A stretch of DNA of 64,000 nt from Microbacterium oxydans (GTDB lineage Bacteria; Actinomycetota; Actinomycetes; Actinomycetales; Microbacteriaceae). Location of the stretch: contig NZ_CP092891.1 in NCBI RefSeq assembly GCF_026559675.1, forward strand, positions 186,001 to 250,000, read 5' to 3'. Of the stretch, positions 6,571-49,413 are shown one piece after another. The position numbers and the translations under genes were made by a program. Under the pieces are notes generated by a model. The model saw nothing but the letters and a program-made list of their open reading frames with translations, did no database searches and had not been told where the DNA came from. How positions within the stretch are numbered: position 1 is the first letter of the stretch; every line of letters starts with the position of its first letter.

Positions 6571-6742
6571 CGACGTCTCTTCCTGAACTGGCGCTCCGGG
6601 CTCCACGGACTCGAGCTGATTCTGGGCGGGCACAGTCGAATCGTAGAGGACAGGATGTCCGAGCAGAAGAACGATGCCCGCGCTCCGCAGGGGTGAAGAG
6701 CAGGGATGAAACCATCCGATGCCGCTCGTCGTTCCGCGGCGT

Positions 6743-8089
6743 CTACCTCCGGCGATCGTCCCGGTCCATGCCCCGTCGCCGCCACGGTCCGGTGATCCGC
6801 GCCCAGAGGCTCGGCGGCGCATCCTCGGCGTCGGACGGGGCGGGCAGCGCGACAGCGAACTGCACGAACTCCTCGGCGCCGTGATGCACCACCCGGTAGA
6901 GCGCGGTGCCGATCAGCACCCCGAGCGCGATCGACATGACGGAGATGAGGGCGGTGGCGAAGTCGGCGAGGCCGTTGTCGGTGGCGACGGCCTCGGTGAG
7001 CCCGACCAGTCCGGCGGCACCGGGCACCAGCAGCCAGAACGCCGGGAGGAACGTCAGCTGCGACGGAGCGCCGTGCCGGAGACCGGCGATCCAGAACACG
7101 ACCGGAGTGACGGCGACGGCGCCGATGAACCCGCCGACGGTCGGGTCGATGAACTCGGTGCCCGCCCACTGGCCGACGTACGCGACGACCAGTGCGAGCA
7201 GCACCCAGCCGAAGGTCGAGGGCGGCGCGGAGAAATGCAGGTAGTTGCCGAGGGCGAAGATCAGGATGCCGATGGCGGGAACCCACCACGGCAGGAACGA
7301 CGACGCGTCGAGCGGTTCGTAGGAATGCGACTCCACCCCCACGACTGCACCCGCGGCCAGGATGCCGAAGGCGAGCAGGGCGAGCTGCACGAAGCCGTAG
7401 ACGAGTCGCGAGGCGCCGGAGATCATCTGCCCCGCGGCGAGCTCGACGGTCGCGGTCGTCAGCACACCGCCGGGGAGGAACGTCACCAGCGGCGCGATGA
7501 GCAGACGGATCGGGTCGCCGATCTCGATCACCTCGGCCAGGAGGAAGACCGCCGCCGCGCACACGAACGCCGCGGCGATGGGCAGGATCAGCTGCAGGGT
7601 CGGCGAGCGCACGAGCTTCAGCAGGCCGATCCCGAAGCCGAGGATGAACGCGACGATCACTCCCTGCCAGGTCGGGGCGAGCAGCAGCGCGAGACCGGTG
7701 GTGAGGATGGCGTGCCCGAGCGTGCGGGTGAACCAGCCGAGCCGCGGCTTCATCGCGCCGATCTCGTTCAGTCGTCGGATGCCGTCGATCGGCGGGACGG
7801 CCCCGGCACGCGCCCGGCCGATCAGCTCGTACAGTGCGGCGATCTGGTCGAAGCGGAACGACGCGTTCGTCGCGGAGCGGATCGCGACCCGGGACTCGTC
7901 CGACTCCCCCGTCTCCACGATGATGATCGTCGGCAGCACCACGAAGTCGGTGTCGTCGCCGCCGTTCGCCCGCGCGACGTCGGTGATGGTGTCGCGGATG
8001 CGGTCGACCGACTCGGCGGACGCGTTCATCCCCTGCGCCAGCCCGAGCAGGAACTGGCGCAGGGCGGAGCGGTCGACGACCTCGGTCAT
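6743..8089 (-). CDS. ThrE-type threonine/serine exporter family protein
   Basis: 448 residues. The cytoplasmic N-terminal domain (about 1-125) and roughly ten membrane segments after it match the fused ThrE architecture (DUF1212 followed by a DUF3815-like half). Family motifs are seen at FLPGGVLTTATVELAAG and PAFWLLVPGAAGLVGL. ThrE of Corynebacterium exports threonine and serine using the proton gradient; the substrate here is inferred from family. It is the last gene of a three-gene operon (PepE, Dcu-like carrier, this gene), starting one base after the carrier's stop. The C-terminus is basic (RRRGMDRDDRRR). Confidence 0.88.
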   Translation of the reverse strand: MTEVVDRSALRQFLLGLAQGMNASAESVDRIRDTITDVARANGGDDTDFVVLPTIIIVETGESDESRVAIRSATNASFRFDQIAALYELIGRARAGAVPPIDGIRRLNEIGAMKPRLGWFTRTLGHAILTTGLALLLAPTWQGVIVAFILGFGIGLLKLVRSPTLQLILPIAAAFVCAAAVFLLAEVIEIGDPIRLLIAPLVTFLPGGVLTTATVELAAGQMISGASRLVYGFVQLALLAFGILAAGAVVGVESHSYEPLDASSFLPWWVPAIGILIFALGNYLHFSAPPSTFGWVLLALVVAYVGQWAGTEFIDPTVGGFIGAVAVTPVVFWIAGLRHGAPSQLTFLPAFWLLVPGAAGLVGLTEAVATDNGLADFATALISVMSIALGVLIGTALYRVVHHGAEEFVQFAVALPAPSDAEDAPPSLWARITGPWRRRGMDRDDRRR

Positions 8090-8090
8090 G

Positions 8091-9446
8091 TCACGCGAAC
8101 AGGAACGACAGCGTCACCCCGACGATGATGGCGACGCCGATGTAGACGAGGTTCGGCAGCTGGAACGAGTGGTCGAAGACGAACTTGCCCATCTTCGTCG
8201 TCCCGGTCTGGTCGAACGCCACCGTGGCGACCTGGCTGCCGTTGGCCGGCAGCGTGTAGATGCCCATGGTCGCGGGCCAGAGGCCGACGAGGAGCGATGC
8301 CGGCAGTCCGATCGTGATGCCGATCGGCACGATGGCGTTCGTGGCACTCGACTGGCTCGTCGTGAGCATCGCGACCGCGAACAGCGCGAGCGCGAAGAGC
8401 AGCGCGCCGAGGAACGCCGACGATCCGGAGACCACCGAGCCGAGCCCGTCGACGATGAGCTTCTGGTTCGCCGCGACGAAGGTGTTGGCGAGCCACGCGA
8501 TACCGAAGAGGGCGATGGCTCCGACGATGCCGGCGGGGAAGGTGGGCTGCTTGGGGACGTCAGCCGCCTTCACCTTGCAGAAGACGAAGATCAGGGCGGC
8601 GATGATGCCCATCGTCACCTCGATGATGACCGTGACGCTGAGCCGCACCGGGTCGCCCGCATCGTCGGTGCCGATCACCGGACGCAGGTTCTCGAACAGG
8701 CCGAAGAACACGATCACCGCGACGCCGGCGAGGAACAGTGCGGCGGACAGCACGGCGGTCGGCGCGAGCTTGTTCTCGTGGGCATCGACCGTCGGCGGCT
8801 TGATCTGGTGGTCGGCCAGGCGGCGCTGGAACTCCGGGTCTTCCTCGAGATCCTTGCCGTGGCGCATCATGACGAGCGCGGCGACGAAGAGACCGGCGAT
8901 GGAGGCCGGCCACATGATGAGCAGCAGCCCGCCGAGGTCGACGCCCTGCGGAGCGAGCAGCACCACCATCGAGGCGGTGGCGGCGGAGACGGGCGAGCAC
9001 AGGATGCCGACCTGCGAGGCGACGGCCGAGACCGAGAGCGCCCGCTCGGGACGGATCTTCTGCTGGTACGAGACGTCGTAGATCACGGGCAGCAGCGGGT
9101 AGAAGATGTTGCCCGTGCCGGCGCCGACCGTGAAGAGGAACGACATGGCCGGAGCGAGGAACACCACGGATTTCGGCTTGCGGCGGATGACCTTCGCGGC
9201 GACCGACACCATCCAGTCGATGCCGCCCGCCGCCTGCATGGTCGACGCCGCGGTGATCACGGTGATGACGATGAAGACCGCGTCGACCGGAGCGTTGCCC
9301 GGTGCCTCGCCGAAGAAGAAGATGAGGATGGCGACGCCGACCAGTCCCCAGACGCCCAGGCCGATCCCGCTCGTGCGGGTGCCCATGTAGATGGCGCCGA
9401 TGACGATGATCAGCTGCGCGATGAGGATCCACACGTTGTCGTTCAT
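8091..9446 (-). CDS. Anaerobic C4-dicarboxylate transporter, DcuA/DcuB family
   Basis: 451-residue membrane carrier with about 11-12 hydrophobic segments. Its start (MNDNVWILIAQLIIVIGAIY) and the motifs GTGNIFYPLLPVIYDVSYQ, LCSPVSAATASMV and TSQSSATNAIVPIGI are characteristic of DcuA/DcuB. These carriers exchange aspartate, fumarate, malate or succinate. ATG 9446 is chosen because it overlaps the pepE stop as ATGA and an open upstream frame does not look like protein. Sitting directly after a dipeptidase that can release aspartate, it may import or exchange that aspartate (inference). A short loop (about 185-220) is hydrophilic and presumably cytoplasmic. Confidence 0.92.
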   Translation of the reverse strand: MNDNVWILIAQLIIVIGAIYMGTRTSGIGLGVWGLVGVAILIFFFGEAPGNAPVDAVFIVITVITAASTMQAAGGIDWMVSVAAKVIRRKPKSVVFLAPAMSFLFTVGAGTGNIFYPLLPVIYDVSYQQKIRPERALSVSAVASQVGILCSPVSAATASMVVLLAPQGVDLGGLLLIMWPASIAGLFVAALVMMRHGKDLEEDPEFQRRLADHQIKPPTVDAHENKLAPTAVLSAALFLAGVAVIVFFGLFENLRPVIGTDDAGDPVRLSVTVIIEVTMGIIAALIFVFCKVKAADVPKQPTFPAGIVGAIALFGIAWLANTFVAANQKLIVDGLGSVVSGSSAFLGALLFALALFAVAMLTTSQSSATNAIVPIGITIGLPASLLVGLWPATMGIYTLPANGSQVATVAFDQTGTTKMGKFVFDHSFQLPNLVYIGVAIIVGVTLSFLFA

Positions 9447-10183
9447 GACGACGGTCCCTTCACGATCGGGGCGTTCCCGGTGAGCACGGTCGTGGGCAGC
9501 TCGGTCTCGACGATCTTCCCGTCGATGGCCTCGACCCGTAGCGCGAGCGCGTTCTCGACCGGGCTGATCGCGGTGACGAACTCGGAGTTCTCGAAGTGCA
9601 GCGACTGCAGGTTGCCGACTGCGTAGCCCGTGGAGAGCTCGCCGCTCAGCAGGGACGCGTGGAAGAGCGGGCGGCGCTGGTCCTCGGCGTCGTAGTGCGG
9701 GCAGAAGCTGCCGTGCAGGAACCCGAGTCCCTCCGGCAGGACCTGGAGGGTGGGGCCGTAGCTGTCGGTGGTGCCGCCCTCGAACCAGCAGATGCCGCCG
9801 GCGCTGCCGCCCGTGAAGACGACGTTCGAGTCGGGGTCCTCCCACATCTCGCGCATGATCTCGTCGAGGCCCTGGCGCTTCCAGACGTCGAGCATGTTCG
9901 CCGTATTGCCGCCGCCGACGTGGATCACGTCGAAGCCCTTCACGTAGCCCGCGAGATCGTCCACCGCCCGATGGAAGAGCGGCAGGTGGTGCGGCGCGCA
10001 GCGGTCGGAATCGTAGGTGGAGTAGAAGCTCACGATGTACGCGGCGTCATCGCCGGTCGCCGTGCCGACGAAGAGCACCCGGGGGCGCTCCTTGCCGGTG
10101 AGTTCGAGGATGTAATCGTGCGTCGGATCGTTCCGCCGCTCCATCATGGCCTTGCCGGCCCCGGTTGCCACCACGTGAGACAT
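9443..10183 (-). CDS. Peptidase E-like dipeptidase (S51 family)
   Basis: 246 residues, a class I glutamine-amidotransferase-fold serine peptidase. The nucleophile Ser lies in GGSAGGICWF (about residues 125-134), a Gly-rich strand precedes it (VIHVGGGNTANML), and a conserved HGSFCPHYD segment follows. Peptidase E cleaves N-terminal Asp-X dipeptides; this longer form resembles the Gram-positive YgaJ group, so Asp specificity is probable but not certain. It is the first gene of the operon with the Dcu-like and ThrE-like transporters. No signal peptide, so it acts in the cytoplasm. Confidence 0.88.
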   Translation of the reverse strand: MSHVVATGAGKAMMERRNDPTHDYILELTGKERPRVLFVGTATGDDAAYIVSFYSTYDSDRCAPHHLPLFHRAVDDLAGYVKGFDVIHVGGGNTANMLDVWKRQGLDEIMREMWEDPDSNVVFTGGSAGGICWFEGGTTDSYGPTLQVLPEGLGFLHGSFCPHYDAEDQRRPLFHASLLSGELSTGYAVGNLQSLHFENSEFVTAISPVENALALRVEAIDGKIVETELPTTVLTGNAPIVKGPSS

Positions 10184-43524: not shown

Positions 43525-44370
43525 ATGACAGACTCCCCGCGCAGCGTCGTCACGAACCGCAGCGTCGTCACGAACCGCAGTGTCGTCACGAACCGCAGTG
43601 TCGTCGTGACCGGCAGCGGCAAGGGCATCGGCCGAGCCATCGCGGAGCGCCTGACCGCCGACGGCTGGATCGTGGTCGGGCTCGAGCGCTCGCCGGGGTC
43701 CGGCACGGTCGAAGAGGGCATCGTGGCGGAGGTCGTGCTCGGCGACGCCGCCGACCGCGCGACGCATGAGCGCGCCGCCGCAGCCGCCCGCGCCCGGGCG
43801 CCTCTCGCCGGCTGGGTGAACAACGCCGGCATCACGAAGCGCACGCCGCTGCACGACCTTGACGAGGACACCGTGCGCGAGATCCTCGGCATCAACGGCT
43901 TCGGATACATCTGGGGCTGCTCGACCGCGGTCTCGGCCTTCGTGGATCAGGGCGTCGCGGGGGCGATCGTGAACATCGGCTCGATCCACGGCCGCGCGTC
44001 CTTCACTGATCACGCGGCCTACGAGTTCACGAAGGGCGGCATCGACGCGCTGACCCGCAGCGTCGCCGTGACTTACGGCGGACTCGGCATCCGCGCCAAC
44101 ACCGTCGCGCCGGGCGGCGTGCGCACCCCGCACCTCGAAGCCCAGATCGCGCGGGCCGCCGACCCGGCCGCCGAGGAGCGCGCACTCGCCGAGGGACCGC
44201 CCATGGGGCGCATCGCCCGTGCCGAGGAGGTCGCGGCCGTCACGGCGTTCCTGCTCTCCGACGAGGCTCCGTATCTCTCGGGGCAGTCCATCGCGGTCGA
44301 CGGCGCCTGGACGGCATCCTTCGGCGACATCGCGGTCGACCACGCGCTGCGGGAACGGTTCGGGGCCTGA
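43525..44370 (+). CDS. SDR-family dehydrogenase with repeated N-terminus
   Basis: 281 residues. SDR core: TGSGKGIG (29-36), NNAG (99-102), INGFGYIWG, Ser in NIGSIHG and Y166/K170 in AYEFTK. Its N-terminus is built from an 18-bp unit repeated about four times (RSVVTN three times, the fourth becoming strand beta-1, RSVVVTG), adding about 18 residues. It ends VDHALRERFGA; the last codons and 12 bases beyond the stop recur at 45653-45713. Likely a 2-keto-3-deoxy sugar acid or hydroxyacid dehydrogenase of the same pathway. Confidence 0.88.
   Translation: MTDSPRSVVTNRSVVTNRSVVTNRSVVVTGSGKGIGRAIAERLTADGWIVVGLERSPGSGTVEEGIVAEVVLGDAADRATHERAAAAARARAPLAGWVNNAGITKRTPLHDLDEDTVREILGINGFGYIWGCSTAVSAFVDQGVAGAIVNIGSIHGRASFTDHAAYEFTKGGIDALTRSVAVTYGGLGIRANTVAPGGVRTPHLEAQIARAADPAAEERALAEGPPMGRIARAEEVAAVTAFLLSDEAPYLSGQSIAVDGAWTASFGDIAVDHALRERFGA
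43540..43611 (+). repeat. Four 18-bp tandem repeats in SDR 5' end
   Basis: Units at 43540-43557, 43558-43575, 43576-43593 and 43594-43611. Units 1 and 2 are identical, unit 3 has one change and unit 4 diverges toward the SDR beta-1 strand. In-frame, so copy-number changes would lengthen or shorten the protein by six residues. Confidence 0.9.
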
Positions 44371-44382
44371 CGGTCGGGCAGC
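44322..44382 (+). repeat. Direct repeat A flanking the toxin-antitoxin module
   Basis: 61 bp covering the last 15 sense codons and stop of the SDR gene plus 12 bp downstream. It matches 45653-45713 with three mismatches. Confidence 0.9.
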
Positions 44383-44436
44383 AAGAGGGACCGAGGCGAT
44401 GGAGAGGTCCGTCACGGGTGACCTCGACGATCTTCC

Positions 44437-45009
44437 TCAGAGGAGAGATCGCACGACCGCATGAGCACCTGTCATGGCGTAGCGATCGCGAAGCTCGTCG
44501 AGCAGCGCGCCGGGAGTCGTGTTGCGTCGTGTCGACAGCTGCAGGAGGGACCGAGCCCCCGCATGTGGATGTGCTGCGACCGTGTTCGCCGCGAATTCTG
44601 CGGGGTTGAGCGTCTCGATATTGGCGTCGCGGAGAGCTCGCGACGTCCGGAATCCGGCTCGCTCGTCGTCCGTCACGATGGCGTCCGCCTTCCCGATGAT
44701 CGCGGCGTGCGCGACATGTCCGTCGTCGCGATCCTCGAGCTGATAGTCGTACGCCCTGTTCTTCGGTGCCGTGATGGTCGACCCCGGGAAGGCTTTCGTC
44801 ATCTCCTCGAACAGGTGGGCGCGAGCGTGATCGCTGTCGCCGGGATCGACGCCCCGCCGGTCATCGATCCGCGCGAGGACGTAGTCGAGTTCGAACAGGA
44901 TCCCCGTGCCCCATAGGGGTGCGTATGCTCTCTCTGCCGCGAGCTGGAGCAGGAAATCACGCTGAAGGCCAGGCACGAGGGCGCAGGTGTCGAGGACGGC
45001 CGTGTACAC
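44437..45009 (-). CDS. PIN-domain toxin (VapC-like ribonuclease)
   Basis: 190 residues from GTG 45009. Acidic PIN residues: D7 in VLDTCAL, E40 in ILFELDY, D96 in EDRDDGHVAHAA and D114/D115 in IVTDDERAGF. It should be a Mg-dependent RNase. The start is uncertain: the antitoxin stops at 45050 and no good Shine-Dalgarno precedes GTG 45009 (CTG 45027 is possible), so translation may depend on coupling. A ~60-residue tail beyond the PIN core (LSTRRNTTPGALLDELRDRY) is unusual for classical VapC. Codon use is less GC-rich than in neighbouring genes. Confidence 0.82.
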   Translation of the reverse strand: MYTAVLDTCALVPGLQRDFLLQLAAERAYAPLWGTGILFELDYVLARIDDRRGVDPGDSDHARAHLFEEMTKAFPGSTITAPKNRAYDYQLEDRDDGHVAHAAIIGKADAIVTDDERAGFRTSRALRDANIETLNPAEFAANTVAAHPHAGARSLLQLSTRRNTTPGALLDELRDRYAMTGAHAVVRSLL

Positions 45010-45049
45010 CCGATGAGTGTTCCACAGCCGCTGCGCGTCTATCGCTGCG

Positions 45050-45559
45050 TCAGCGAGCTTTGCGGGCTTCTGTGAGCAATTCCGAGATGTCGTCGACGTC
45101 TGCGTCGCTGTACCGGGCGGAACTCTCCGCGATGAAAGCACGGCGACGCGACTGAATCTCATCCCGGTATGCCAGGACGTCGGAGAGGTAGAGCTTCCGC
45201 CTCACCGTTCCGGGGACGTGTGCAGGGAGTTCGCCGGCCTCGATCAGCTGCACGACGGTGGGCCGACTGATACCGAGGATCTCGCCGGCCTGCTGAGTCG
45301 TGAGCTCCTGATCACGAGCGGAGATGCTGACGGACTGACCGTGACTCAACGCAGCTGCTGCTTGTCTGAGGACGGCGTAGAGCTGTTCACTGAGCTCGAC
45401 ACGGTCATGTTCGCCCGCACCGCTGAGGAAGAAGCTCGGCTCCGGTGCTCCGCCGCGGCGCGCCTCGTGCGCTTCCATGAAGCTGAGCAGCGTGGCGATC
45501 TGATCCGCCTGTTCGGGTACCGGGGAAACGGTCGTGTCCTGCGCGCGTGATGCAGCCAT
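45050..45559 (-). CDS. Antitoxin with excisionase-type helix-turn-helix
   Basis: 169 residues from ATG 45559, with GAGGAG upstream. The first ~80 residues are hydrophilic and helical. An Xis/MerR-like winged helix follows at about 86-130 (LTTQQAGEILGISRPTVVQLIEAGELP, in which T88-P112 is the DNA-binding unit, then RKLYLSDVLAYRDE). The acidic C-terminus (SDADVDDISELLTEARKAR) is likely the toxin-neutralising part. Promoter-proximal position and DNA-binding domain suggest autoregulation. Such HTH-PIN pairs are common in actinobacteria. Confidence 0.82.
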   Translation of the reverse strand: MAASRAQDTTVSPVPEQADQIATLLSFMEAHEARRGGAPEPSFFLSGAGEHDRVELSEQLYAVLRQAAAALSHGQSVSISARDQELTTQQAGEILGISRPTVVQLIEAGELPAHVPGTVRRKLYLSDVLAYRDEIQSRRRAFIAESSARYSDADVDDISELLTEARKAR

Positions 45560-45652
45560 GAACTTCTCCTCGGCCCGCCGGCTTGATGTGAACGGGACGT
45601 TTACAGGTTATCGCTGAAACGAAAGAAACGAAAGATGCGTAAGAAACGAAGG

Positions 45653-45713
45653 CGGCGACATCGCGGTCGACCCCGCCCTGCGGGAGCGGTTCGGGGCCTG
45701 ACGGTCGGGCAGC
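45653..45713 (+). repeat. Direct repeat B flanking the toxin-antitoxin module
   Basis: 58 of 61 bases match 44322-44382. It would encode the same SDR C-terminus (VDPALRERFGA and stop), but it is not preceded by the rest of an SDR gene. Short purine-rich GAAACGAAA-like repeats lie just before it (45614-45650). Confidence 0.9.
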
Positions 45714-45725
45714 CGCAGGCCGTCG

Positions 45726-46541
45726 TCAGCGGAGATACGCGTCCACGAGCAGCGCACCGCGGATGACGCGCAGCTCGTCGAGGATGCGCCTCAGGCTCTT
45801 CGCGCTCACCGAGGACAGCGCGAGGTCGTGCGGACCGAGAGGTTCGAGCTTTCCGGTCCGGATGCGGATGACCTCCCAGCCCGCGGCGCGGAGGGCGCGG
45901 TCCTTGCGCAGGTCGGCGTCCTGCCGCTTGCCGACGTGCTCCAGACCGTGGCGCCCGACGGTGTCGTACTCGAGCGCGACGCGCAGCTCCGGGGGCACGA
46001 TGTCGGGCCAGACCTCGGTGTGACGGAAGAACGGGCGCGAGACCTTCACGGCGTTCACGGCCGGGTCGAACTCGATCAGGCTCTCGAGTTCCGCCCGCAG
46101 GCGTCCCTCCGCGGCGGAGGCAGGGCGCGGTGCGCACGCGCTCTCGAACGCAGTCCCCGCGGGCAGGTCGGGCGTCTTCGTGCAGATCGCGGGCGCCGGG
46201 CGACGGGGCTTGCGGGGCAGGGCGCGGGCTTCGCCGAGCACGACCGGCTGCGGGCGGGCGAGCGCGGAGCACTCCGGGCACCAGGCGGAGCGGCGTCGCA
46301 CCTGTCCCGGACGCTCGCGCTGCTCTGCCGGGGTCGCGGCGAACCGGTGCCCGACCGCGCACTCCCAGCAGAGGAGCACATCGGCCGCGAGCGGGATCTG
46401 CGACAGGACGATGCCGTGGTTCAGCTCCGGATGGTACTGCCGAATCAGTTCCGGATACGCCGCCCACCCGGCACGGTAGGTGCCCACGTCATGTGGAACA
46501 GCGCGACCGCGGGAGAACTGCCGTCGCGCCCACCACTGCAT
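45726..46541 (-). CDS. Zinc-ribbon protein with Vsr/DUF559-like nuclease core
   Basis: 271 residues from ATG 46541 (GGAAG 5 nt upstream); GTG 46556 is an alternative. An N-terminal zinc-ribbon uses C58/C61 (CWEC) and C88/C91 (CPEC) around GHRF. The C-terminal domain (about 140-265) looks like a PD-(D/E)XK nuclease of the Vsr/DUF559 type: VWPDIV (D180), LEYDTVGRHG (E191, D193), K213 and a final GWEVIRIRTGKL strand. It may cut DNA in repair or defence; it is divergent from dinB. Function is inferred from fold only. Confidence 0.75.
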   Translation of the reverse strand: MQWWARRQFSRGRAVPHDVGTYRAGWAAYPELIRQYHPELNHGIVLSQIPLAADVLLCWECAVGHRFAATPAEQRERPGQVRRRSAWCPECSALARPQPVVLGEARALPRKPRRPAPAICTKTPDLPAGTAFESACAPRPASAAEGRLRAELESLIEFDPAVNAVKVSRPFFRHTEVWPDIVPPELRVALEYDTVGRHGLEHVGKRQDADLRKDRALRAAGWEVIRIRTGKLEPLGPHDLALSSVSAKSLRRILDELRVIRGALLVDAYLR

Positions 46542-46603
46542 CACCGCTTCCGGCACGCGCCGACCATACCCGCCGTCACAGACACCGCCTCGTGCCAGCT
46601 GAC

Positions 46604-46651
46604 ACCGATACCGATACCGATACCGGCACCGATACCGACGCCGATACCGCT
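46604..46651. repeat. Hexanucleotide tandem repeat (ACCGAT)n
   Basis: Eight consecutive 6-bp units, four of them exactly ACCGAT, the rest one or two bases off. Lies in the 160-bp divergent promoter region between the nuclease-like gene and dinB. Confidence 0.9.
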
Positions 46652-46701
46652 TCCGGTGTCCCCGGTCCGTGCGACGATCCGCACGTCGACGGGAGAACGG
46701 G

Positions 46702-47898
46702 ATGCGTGGGGAAGCCACGGTGCTGCATGCCGACCTCGATGCGTTCTACGCCTCGGTCGAGCAGCGTGATGCGCCGGAGCTGCGGGGCCGGCCCGTCATC
46801 GTGGGCGGCGGGGTCGTGCTGGCGGCGAGCTACGAGGCGAAGGCCCGCGGCGTGCGCACCGCCATGGGCGGACGGCAGGCGCGGGAGCTCTGCCCCGATG
46901 CGATCGTGGTCCCACCGCGCATGGACGCCTACTCTGAGGCCAGCAAACAGGTGTTCGCGATCTTCCGCGACACCACCCCGCTCGTGGAGGGGCTGTCGAT
47001 CGACGAGGCGTTCCTCGAGGTCGGGGGTCTGAGGCGGATCGCGGGCAGCCCCGAGCAGATCGCGGCGCGGCTGCGCGAGCGCGTGCGCACGGAGGCCGGA
47101 CTCGCCATCTCGGTCGGAGTCGCGCGCACGAAGTTCCTCGCCAAGGTCGCCAGTGCCGTGAGCAAACCCGACGGCCTGCTGGTCGTGGAGCCCGAGCGCG
47201 AGGAGGAATTCCTGCTTCCCCTGCCGGTGGAGAGGCTGTGGGGCGTGGGGGCGGTGACGGCGGAGAAGCTGCACCGCTACGGCGTCCGCACGGTGGGGCA
47301 GCTCGCCGAGCTCGAGGCGGCCACCGCCGAGCGGATGCTGGGCAAGGCGACCGGGGCCCATGTGCACGCGCTGGCCCGGCTGCGGGACCCGCGCCCGGTC
47401 GACACCACTCGGCGACGCGGGTCCATCGGCTCGCAGCGGGCGCTCGGCAGCCGACCGCGATCGGCCGAGGAGCTCGACCTCATCCTCACCCAGATCGTCG
47501 ACCGGCTCGCTCGGCGGCTGCGCGACGGCGGCCGTGTCTGCCGCACCGTCGTGCTGCGTCTCCGGTTCGGCGACTTCTCGAAGGCCACGCGCTCCCGCTC
47601 GCTCCGCGCGCCGACCGACCGCACCGCCGTGCTGCTGACCCTCGCGCGCACGCTGCTCGCGGCGGCGCAGCCCGAGATCGCCGACCGCGGCATCACCCTG
47701 CTCGGCATCTCTCTGTCGCAGCTCGACCGCGCCGACCGTGTGCAGCCCGAGCTGCCGATCGACTGGGGCGACGAGGCGCGCCTCGACGGGGTGCTCGACA
47801 CCCTGCGTGATCGCTACGGCGCGAGCTCGGTGTCGCGGGCGGCCCAGCTCGGCCGCGACCCGGGCTGGTCGTCCCCGATCCTGCCCGAGCACGAGTGA
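46702..47898 (+). CDS. dinB: DNA polymerase IV (Y-family translesion polymerase)
   Basis: 398 residues from ATG 46702 (GGGAG upstream; an earlier in-frame start at 46669 overlaps non-coding repeat). Catalytic acidic residues: HADLDAFYASVEQ (about 9-21) and SIDEAFLEV (about 104-112). Little-finger domain at the C-terminus after a thumb with WGVGAVTAEKL. Performs translesion synthesis. No SOS-box-like CGAACrnryGTTCG is visible upstream. The C-terminal clamp-binding motif QLx(S/D)LF is not obvious. Confidence 0.95.
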   Translation: MRGEATVLHADLDAFYASVEQRDAPELRGRPVIVGGGVVLAASYEAKARGVRTAMGGRQARELCPDAIVVPPRMDAYSEASKQVFAIFRDTTPLVEGLSIDEAFLEVGGLRRIAGSPEQIAARLRERVRTEAGLAISVGVARTKFLAKVASAVSKPDGLLVVEPEREEEFLLPLPVERLWGVGAVTAEKLHRYGVRTVGQLAELEAATAERMLGKATGAHVHALARLRDPRPVDTTRRRGSIGSQRALGSRPRSAEELDLILTQIVDRLARRLRDGGRVCRTVVLRLRFGDFSKATRSRSLRAPTDRTAVLLTLARTLLAAAQPEIADRGITLLGISLSQLDRADRVQPELPIDWGDEARLDGVLDTLRDRYGASSVSRAAQLGRDPGWSSPILPEHE

Positions 47899-47977
47899 AC
47901 CGGCACGATGCGCAGGGTTCCCGGGCCGGTCCGGTACCGTGAGCTCGACGCGCCGAGCCGAAGAAGGACGCAGCTGC

Positions 47978-48286
47978 ATGAACGCACTCAGCCGGACGGG
48001 ATGGTACCTGGTGGTGCTGGTGCGCGGGCTCCTGCTCTGGGTCCTGATCCCGTTCGCCGTCCTCGCCTGGCTTCTCGTCCATTCGTGGGCGCAGAAGGCC
48101 TCCCGCCGGCAGACGCTGTGCTGGTACGACACGCATCTGACCGTGGCGCTCGTGAAGGGTCCGTTCCGCCTGATGATCGCTCCCGAGCATCGGCGCTTCG
48201 AGCGGATTCCGAGGATGGCGGCCATGGAGTCCCGAAAGACCAGCTTCGTCGGCATGGACGCCGTCGAGCTCTTCGACCTGGTGTGA
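47978..48286 (+). CDS. Small membrane-anchored protein
   Basis: 102 residues from ATG 47978 (GAAGG upstream). One strong hydrophobic segment (about 8-36) is followed by a soluble tail with WYDTHLTVALVKGPFRLMI and KTSFVGMDAVELFDLV. It follows dinB by 79 bp in the same direction. Family not recognised. Confidence 0.72.
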   Translation: MNALSRTGWYLVVLVRGLLLWVLIPFAVLAWLLVHSWAQKASRRQTLCWYDTHLTVALVKGPFRLMIAPEHRRFERIPRMAAMESRKTSFVGMDAVELFDLV

Positions 48287-48320
48287 TGGCGGGCGGTCCA
48301 GGACGGAGACGTGCTGCGGT

Positions 48321-48671
48321 TCAGGCCTTGAGCATCGACGCCCGCGCGATCAGGCCGTCCACCACGTCGAAGGTCGCGATGGTCTCGGTCGCGACGCCCG
48401 CGTTGATGACCTGCTCCTGCGCGACGACCCACCGCGTGCCGAACAGCACGCTGGTCTCGATCACGCACGACAGCTCGGGGTTCTGCAGCCGCGGCTCGTA
48501 GAAGGCGCGGATCGCGTCGGTACCCACCACGGGTTCCGGCGCGACGCCGGTGATCACGGCATCCGCGGCGTAGGTCGCGACGAACGCGTCGAGGTCGTGC
48601 GCGTTGAAGGCGTCGAGCTGCGCCTGCACGGTATCGAGGGCAGAGCGGTCGAGGGCGGTGCGGTCAGTCAA
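48321..48671 (-). CDS. SnoaL/NTF2-like nuclear transport factor 2 fold protein
   Basis: 116 residues from TTG 48671, chosen because GGAGGAG lies 6 nt upstream inside the end of the SDR gene. The sequence has AQLDAFNAHDLDAFVATYAADAV (helix 1, two adjoining pieces), FYEPRLQNPEL and RWVVAQEQVINAG, a typical SnoaL-like steroid isomerase/NTF2 fold. Coupled to the upstream SDR gene, it may be an isomerase or lactonase-like partner. Function unknown. Confidence 0.82.
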   Translation of the reverse strand: MTDRTALDRSALDTVQAQLDAFNAHDLDAFVATYAADAVITGVAPEPVVGTDAIRAFYEPRLQNPELSCVIETSVLFGTRWVVAQEQVINAGVATETIATFDVVDGLIARASMLKA

Positions 48672-49413
48672 TGCGAACTCCTCCGTTGACGTCGTAGGTG
48701 GCGCCGGTGATGAACCGGGCCCGCTCCGACGCGAGTGATGCGATGATCCAGGCGACGTCTTCCGGCTGCCCGAATGCACCGAGCGGGATGCCGGCCTCGA
48801 GCTTCTCGCGTCCGGCGCCCTGCAGCTGGTCGGTGATGGCGCTCGCGACCGGGCCCGGCGTGACGGCGTTCACGCGGATGCCCTCGGCGGCGAGGTGCCG
48901 GGCGAAGCTGCGTGTGATGGCGAGGATCGCGCCCTTGCTCGCGGCGTAGTGGATGCCGGTCTGCAGCGCGCCGACCTGGCCGGCGATCGAGGCGATGTTG
49001 ATCACCGAGCGGTCGCCCTCGGCGGCCCGGAGCAACGGGAGAGCGCCGCGGGTCAGGAAGAAGGTGCCGCGGGCGTTGGTCTCGAGGACCATGTCCCATT
49101 CGTCGAACTCGATGTCGTCGTAGGGGGTGTACGGGCAGACGCCGCCGTTGTTGACGAGCACGTGCAGCGAGCCCCACGCGGCCGTGACCTCGGCGATGAG
49201 CGCGTCGATCGACGCGCGCTCGCGCAGGTCGAGGCGGGAGACGTGCACCTCGGGTGAGCCTGCGTCCCGGCACTCCTCGGCGATGCGGAGGGCTTCGGCC
49301 TCGCGCCCGGCATACGTGATCCAGAGGGCGGCGCCCTCGCGGGCGAGTTCGAGGGCGGCGGCGGTTCCGATACCGGAACTCGCCCCCGTGATCAGAGCGC
49401 GGCGAGCAGTCAT
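48664..49413 (-). CDS. SDR-family oxidoreductase
   Basis: 249 residues. TGASSGIG (9-16), NNGG in place of NNAG (88-91), Ser in INIASIAG and Y156/K160 in HYAASK. C-terminus ITGATYDVNGGVRID is typical of FabG-like dehydrogenases. The operator TGCTATAGCA lies only 7 bp upstream of the ATG, so the transcript is probably leaderless. Divergent from the hydroxyacid dehydrogenase gene that carries the same operator. Confidence 0.9.
   Translation of the reverse strand: MTARRALITGASSGIGTAAALELAREGAALWITYAGREAEALRIAEECRDAGSPEVHVSRLDLRERASIDALIAEVTAAWGSLHVLVNNGGVCPYTPYDDIEFDEWDMVLETNARGTFFLTRGALPLLRAAEGDRSVINIASIAGQVGALQTGIHYAASKGAILAITRSFARHLAAEGIRVNAVTPGPVASAITDQLQGAGREKLEAGIPLGAFGQPEDVAWIIASLASERARFITGATYDVNGGVRID

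Follow-up and report, generated by a model that had tools for sequence, protein, structure and literature searches.

How did a toxin-antitoxin (TA) pair come to lie between two copies of the 3' end of an SDR-family oxidoreductase gene? We examined this locus in a 64,000-nucleotide stretch of the Microbacterium oxydans genome (contig NZ_CP092891.1, positions 186,001 to 250,000; hereafter the window, whose positions we use), as it bears on the long-standing question of how chromosomal TA pairs spread without transposases. The window genome, of 3.78 Mb, is G000; other genomes are denoted Gnnn and fetched loci Lnnn. We observed that 1.27 kb has been inserted behind the SDR gene with duplication of 61 bp of its end, and we hold this with high confidence.

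The first-pass annotation of this stretch, made from the letters alone, had described two 61-bp direct repeats with 58 of 61 positions identical, and these were confirmed. The repeat (D3; 44322-44382 and 45653-45713; 95% identity, spacing 1331 bp, E ~1e-22) occurs at just these two sites in the genome in a search at E <= 0.001. The left copy, copy A (44322..44382, forward strand), covers the final 49 bp of the SDR gene, stop codon included, and the 12 bp that follow; the open reading frame at 43525-44370 agrees that this is the true end of the gene. Copy B (45653..45713, forward strand) is an orphan duplicate of the same 3' end, and its right-hand context is native. The annotation had also given copy B the same codons and the same 12 bp after the stop. 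The stop and the 12 bp are the same, but codon 273 is CAC (His) in copy A and CCC (Pro) in copy B, and two further codon differences are silent (the mismatches are at 44342, 44346 and 44355).

The segment between the copies (44383..45652) is 1270 bp long, or 1331 bp as a unit with one repeat copy, and a whole-genome search found it as a single copy. It holds two genes, the antitoxin and the toxin, both open, whose third-position G+C (0.72-0.76) is below that of both neighbouring genes (0.84-0.91). Past copy B, the native spacer between the SDR end and the next gene resumes (45714..45725), and copy B together with these 12 bp aligns with the spacer of G071, a relative without the pair. As copy A is native on its left and copy B is native on its right, the DNA between them is the inserted part.

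The junction was compared across 366 genomes of the genus (one genome per species), many of which have a match to the SDR gene; six compared relatives are 80-91% identical over the flanking genes. Among the matches listed from these genomes, the pair lies at the SDR site in G000 and G002 only, and among 85 fetched loci of the TA family (two of G002, one of the window) the SDR gene is present just in the G000 and G002 loci. The empty site, in which a single gene-end copy is followed by a zinc-finger-like gene, was found in twelve relatives. Eleven of these were read base by base (G071, G125, G170, G167, G029, G151, G150, G234, G339, G191 and G087), and the twelfth, G173, was placed by coordinates only. 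A second 61-bp copy was absent from all 30 SDR loci of relatives (29 genomes), with about 1.5 kb downstream covered in 26 of the 30 and up to 4 kb in the rest. The insert thus lies between direct copies of a sequence that is single at the empty site, and copy B with its right flank is collinear with the native junction. These single-copy sites in other species bear out the suggestion that a unit of ~1.33 kb was inserted and the gene end regenerated. They also dispose of the objection that all relatives might share the arrangement and the repeat. A second objection, that copy B belongs to a longer ancient SDR remnant, was ruled out by the sequence on its left, which is TA upstream sequence common to G002.

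Both genes of the pair were identified by Pfam, in agreement with the PIN toxin and helix-turn-helix (HTH) antitoxin placed between the repeats earlier. The toxin gene (44437..45009, reverse strand) is convergent with the SDR gene and encodes a PIN_3 protein of 190 aa; it was read from the GTG start at 45009 and not as the longer open reading frame to 45162. The antitoxin gene (45050..45559, reverse strand) encodes an HTH_17 protein of 169 aa with an excisionase-like HTH. As adjacent open genes of recognised antitoxin and toxin families, the two have the form of a type II TA locus. In an alignment of 25 proteins the toxin residues D7, D93, D96 and H98 are invariant and E40 is nearly so. The AlphaFold model of the toxin has a pLDDT of 96.8, and in Foldseek the PIN/VapC structures rank first (E 0.013 or weaker; VapC4 with probability 1.00). 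The toxin thus keeps the acidic residues and is predicted to have the PIN fold. A sequence search of the PDB with the toxin gave no match, and the toxin scored below the cut-off of the NCBIfam RSP_2648-type PIN model (76 vs 170 bits). With defence-system profiles the antitoxin gave a weak mad1 match (2.2e-05) and the toxin matched nothing, and a defence-system label for the pair, having this one match behind it, was rejected.

Upstream of the antitoxin gene we observed 9-bp direct iterons (family D9; 45620..45655; 72-78% to the reference copy), which form a putative operator, and the last of them overlaps copy B by 3 bp. Judging from its family, the pair is probably an ordinary type II module, in which a DNA-binding antitoxin would restrain a PIN nuclease and regulate its own expression at these iterons.

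The TA family has a second member at which an insertion could be read. Relatives of the antitoxin are present in 35 of the 366 genomes at E 1e-15 (at E 1e-30, a family scan of 398 genomes found the antitoxin in 6). In G154, a distant pair (antitoxin identity 38%) lies within an insert of 1438 bp between exact 22-bp repeats. This repeat is the overlap between the stop of a 3-hydroxyacyl-CoA dehydrogenase gene and the start of an aldehyde dehydrogenase/MaoC gene, and each copy completes one of the two overlapping genes, so both stay whole. The corresponding empty site has one diverged copy in G012, G017 and G010, the clearest three of the nine relatives displayed; in the other six the spacers are changed or longer. 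No inverted repeats were found in the G154 unit (p 0.24). Upstream of the disconnected gene, the insert further contains a promoter-like stretch that may act as its promoter; it is 81% like a stretch that precedes a different gene in the same operon. This looks like donor DNA belonging to the gene that was cut off, and supports homology on one side of the incoming DNA.

Two other loci resemble insertions. In G009 (L092) a duplicated end of a pyruvyl transferase gene lies beside the pair. In G197 (L093; a draft of 580 contigs, 87% complete), 194-bp copies of the 3' end of an ABM-domain gene enclose a truncated TA locus and a defence-type gene, AbiJ_NTD4 (6736-9663 with the antitoxin forward). 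A comparison of 58 genomes listed none in which the L092/L093 flanks are adjacent, and these look-alikes, having no empty relative, are candidate insertions at most.

We also estimated how general flanking repeats are in this family. At E < 1e-10 they were found at 7 of 33 loci of the genus as against 4 of 133 shifted controls (p 0.0013). At E 1e-06 the counts were 9 of 33 and 5 of 133; L114 (paralogue-like) and L119 (tRNA-like) pass this cut alone. The repeats of L097 and L098 we take to be tRNA-Ser-like ends, and that of L111 is presumably a DUF326-like paralogue pair. At L094 it is the promoter-like repeat that passes 1e-10, while the 22-bp insertion repeat has an E of 7e-06. Gene-end duplications account for at most four of the 33 (the window, L092, L093 and L094; p 0.05), a count generous to the reading that we favour, with L092 and L093 being one region. 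Beyond the genus, 18 named loci have related antitoxins (13 of the mycobacterial group, at 64-68% identity) and 16 of them could be tested. Fifteen of the 16 have no flanking repeat and one has a weak repeat of 73%; among the controls there were two of 52, both of them one L134 repeat. A flanking-repeat habit of the whole family was therefore rejected, since several of the repeats are tRNA-like ends or paralogues and nearly all the named loci that could be tested have none. Our claim concerns two clean cases, G000 and G154, and is not a law; the TA family at large can do without flanking repeats.

Repeats resembling a tRNA-Ser 3' end (GGTTCAAATCCCTCCGTCTCCGC; we assume the tRNA label) adjoin the family members at L097, L098 and L119 (G174, G089 and G081), and at L070 (G069) a tRNA-Ser lies ~0.4 kb from the pair. 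These tRNA-Ser-adjacent members may be cargo of islands that use this tRNA as their integration site.

Integrative elements insert at gene 3' ends and regenerate the gene end by a duplicate, and the first-pass annotation suggested that the pair may be a minimal cassette of this kind, moving by recombination or with a helper enzyme. Developed in full, this would be a non-autonomous cassette moved by a recombinase acting in trans at a 61-bp gene-end attachment site, with the excisionase-like antitoxin and the iterons aiding. Several features are in keeping with it: the target at the gene end is regenerated, the HTH of the antitoxin matches excisionase models (TIGR01764, 1.2e-10; PHROG 2907, 5.9e-07), the iterons abut the junction, and the pair of G002 lies at the same gene end. 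HTH_17 domains are, however, common among ordinary regulators. The annotation was right that the unit has no integrase or transposase of its own, and we found no transposase or recombinase among the 16 proteins scanned within ~8 kb of it. The nearest matches to PF00589 (tyrosine-type recombinases) and PF00239 (serine-type) in the genome are 423 kb and 361 kb away, and the window contains no tRNA; a nearby tRNA or recombinase was rejected on these window and genome scans. Also against the cassette, the unit does not occur elsewhere in the genome. No match to the 61-bp core was found in plasmids, nor to a 36-base part of it in viral contigs.

The source searches with the remaining parts of the unit gave a similar result. 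The 1270-bp segment had no DNA match in plasmids or phages, and viral contigs held no relatives of the antitoxin; a plasmid or phage source was rejected at the DNA level, while distant protein relatives (<60% identity) are present in 7 plasmid records. Terminal inverted repeats were sought at the ends of the G000 unit and rejected (p 0.88). With no inverted repeats in either G000 or G154, and duplications of 61 and 22 bp, the units do not look like transposons, insertion sequences or miniature inverted-repeat elements. As to repeated use of one core, the SDR end is reused in G002 but without a repeat, and other family members lie at other targets. The helper-driven cassette could not be upheld against these observations, and we consider it quite unlikely. 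A one-sided capture of DNA, homologous or illegitimate, fits better than site-specific integration because the duplication lengths (61, 22 and perhaps 194 bp) and the targets differ, there are no inverted repeats, G002 has no repeat, and the named loci mostly lack one.

When we examined G002, we observed the pair behind the same SDR gene (protein identity to the window 92% for the antitoxin and 83% for the toxin), with no second gene end detectable. The gap after the pair showed no trace of copy B when aligned with that of the window (p 0.94 and 1.0) or with the G002 gene end itself (p 0.12 and 0.51; global p 0.16), and a decayed copy B in G002 was rejected. At the DNA level G000 and G002 are 87% and 83% identical over the pair and 86-89% over the flanking genes. 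In flanking-gene trees G002 groups with G150 and G151, which lack the pair, and G000 lies near the TA-less G071 with moderate support only (65/92 and 92/94); a clade of G000 and G002 was rejected (p-AU 0.0035 with 20 rows and 0.0003 with 13 rows). Since the two are not sisters, the pair was gained twice at this gene end, or exchanged, or lost several times. Delivery guided by homology and anchored in the SDR gene would account for two lineages having the pair at one and the same site.

These data also bear on an older origin, in which a target-duplicating insertion in the ancestor of G000 and G002 was followed by exact deletions between the repeats, by conversion between copies A and B in G000 and by decay of copy B in G002. 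The shared gene end, the similar divergence of the pair and its flanks, and the similar length of the gap that follows the pair in G002 (74 against 75 bp, as delimited) are in line with such a history. The SDR-side spacers show a weak similarity (global p 0.04, local p 0.10), and a deletion running from one direct repeat to the other would leave an exact empty site. Yet the G002 gap holds no copy B trace, the 95% identity of A and B requires conversion, and the flanking-gene trees require several losses. We rank this ancestral insertion next after one-sided capture, and consider it rather unlikely.

The age and direction of the duplication were estimated from the copies themselves. Copies A and B differ by 5%, and the flanking genes of G000 and G002 by about 11-13%. 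Because the copies differ less than these genes do, the duplication is younger than the split of G000 and G002, unless gene conversion kept the copies alike. For the direction we used the 29 best-matching relatives. At 44342, the C of copy B is present in all 29 and the A of copy A in none, and at 44355 copy A's base is present in 2 of 29; position 44346 was uninformative (copy A's base in 18 of 29, copy B's in 8). Over the repeat, 23 relatives are nearer to copy B, 2 to copy A, and 4 are ties. At the two informative sites, then, it is the gene's own end (copy A) that appears to be the altered copy. Drift of an unused copy B after a plain duplication would not be expected to give this pattern, whereas arrival of copy A with the insert would.

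We therefore favour a one-sided, homology-anchored capture of a fragment carrying a gene end plus the TA pair, and give this route about an even chance. The incoming DNA would have come from a relative that already had the SDR gene followed by the pair, as in the G002 arrangement, and homology would have anchored it in the 3' end of the SDR gene. The opposite end of this DNA would have been joined illegitimately, or the DNA would have circularised and entered by a single crossover. We also count in favour of this route a ComEC-family gene present in the genome. A new gene end (copy A) would thus arrive with the donor DNA, the resident end would remain as copy B, and the SDR gene would stay whole; the addictive effect of the pair would favour keeping such rare products. 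G002 shows the order of SDR gene then pair, but its gene end is not of the A type and differs from copy A at 14 of 49 sites, so G002 itself was not the donor.

Several points weigh against this route. The polarity hangs on two informative sites, and no sampled donor has an A-like SDR end together with the pair. The pair has diverged about as much as its flanks, as would be expected had it simply been ancestral at the site. For a single crossover by RecA, 61 bp that include three mismatches make a poor substrate, and the 22 bp of G154 are below the 30-bp threshold stated in the relevant part of PMC2884548, so the circle route suits G154 badly. We observed no mosaic signal in the SDR gene toward another species. 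Direct repeats beside small variable segments are also not rare, at 10-18% in three species and mostly short, according to the same portion of that paper (PMC2884548).

An explanation that needs no donor homology is insertion in the course of DNA repair, by template switching or end joining, with 61 bp of the gene end copied a second time. This would agree with the varying duplication lengths and targets and with the lack of inverted repeats, but it does not explain why G002 has the pair at the same site or why the changes are on copy A, the gene's own, and we regard it as improbable. Farther-reaching still, the TA family might enter without a recombinase by borrowed repair, with the module (perhaps through an iteron-bound excisionase-like antitoxin) promoting a variable target duplication that leaves the neighbours whole, and might exit by recombination between the copies. 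We see only a very slight chance of this; if true, the pair would be a two-gene selfish element that moves by borrowed repair.

The genes around the unit are as follows. The SDR gene (43525..44370, forward strand; Pfam adh_short_C2, 2e-43) is open, with its 3' end duplicated, and has orthologues in the relatives. An 18-bp in-frame tandem repeat (43540-43611; SVVTNR, three copies) lies at the N-terminus of its protein; this repeat is variable, with other units in G002, G150 and G151 and none in G071 and others. The treble-clef zinc-finger-like gene (45726..46718, reverse strand; DUF4379 at 24.3 bits vs a cut-off of 24.5) follows the SDR gene in TA-less relatives, and a 6/12-bp tandem repeat of the ACCGAT type lies between it and dinB (46603-46661). 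The region behind the SDR gene (44371-48320 and the orthologous sites) is a hotspot in the genus, its content differing by species: the zinc-finger gene, dinB, a SnoaL-like gene, the TA pair, or an unrelated insert of ~1.8 kb (G233). The SnoaL-like gene of the relatives resembles, by eye, the one at 48321-48779. At L056 (G087) there is a 25-bp tandem repeat just past the SDR stop.

Finally, we compared the locus with known systems. It differs from integrative elements in that there is no integrase in or beside the unit and no clear case of one core being used repeatedly. Closer to the capture that we favour are homology-facilitated illegitimate recombination and circle integration, which, as described in parts of PMC3240628 and PMC2884548, likewise have one homologous anchor, the other end being joined without homology or through a circle. 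In 14 sequenced E. coli clones, circularised DNA that entered by a single crossover gave partial duplications of the anchor locus of 109-950 bp, in the section of PMC3240628 that reports them; the illegitimate route itself is predicted there to delete and not to duplicate. Those cases, as described, come from experiments in which DNA was given to competent bacteria and E. coli, whereas the duplications here are natural and shorter (61 and 22 bp). For Vibrio cholerae, gain of effector-immunity modules of the type VI secretion system by a similar homology-facilitated event has been proposed (PMC5361080). In that proposal, toxin and immunity genes are also added behind a conserved stretch, with the old genes orphaned downstream; the old effector is displaced there, while the SDR gene in our case is kept whole and has no relation to the toxin pair behind it.

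The nearest precedent is the insertion of restriction-modification genes with long target duplication in Helicobacter pylori (Nobusato, Uchiyama, Ohashi and Kobayashi 2000, as cited in PMC1643837 and PMC3031569). As those citing papers present it, a selfish, addiction-type block present in one genome is flanked on both sides by direct copies of its target, as in our case; the block here is a PIN/HTH TA pair. A literature search at the level of titles and the openings of abstracts found no TA pair described as having entered with a long duplication of its target. The new part would accordingly seem to be that a TA pair can arrive by a target-duplicating insertion, the known part being such insertion for restriction-modification genes. 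Within a single genus, then, one TA family shows two separate insertions; both have an empty site for comparison, and in both enough DNA was duplicated for the neighbouring genes to stay whole. They hint at how selfish pairs that lack their own recombinase can spread, and they tie TA pairs to the target-duplication route known from restriction-modification genes.

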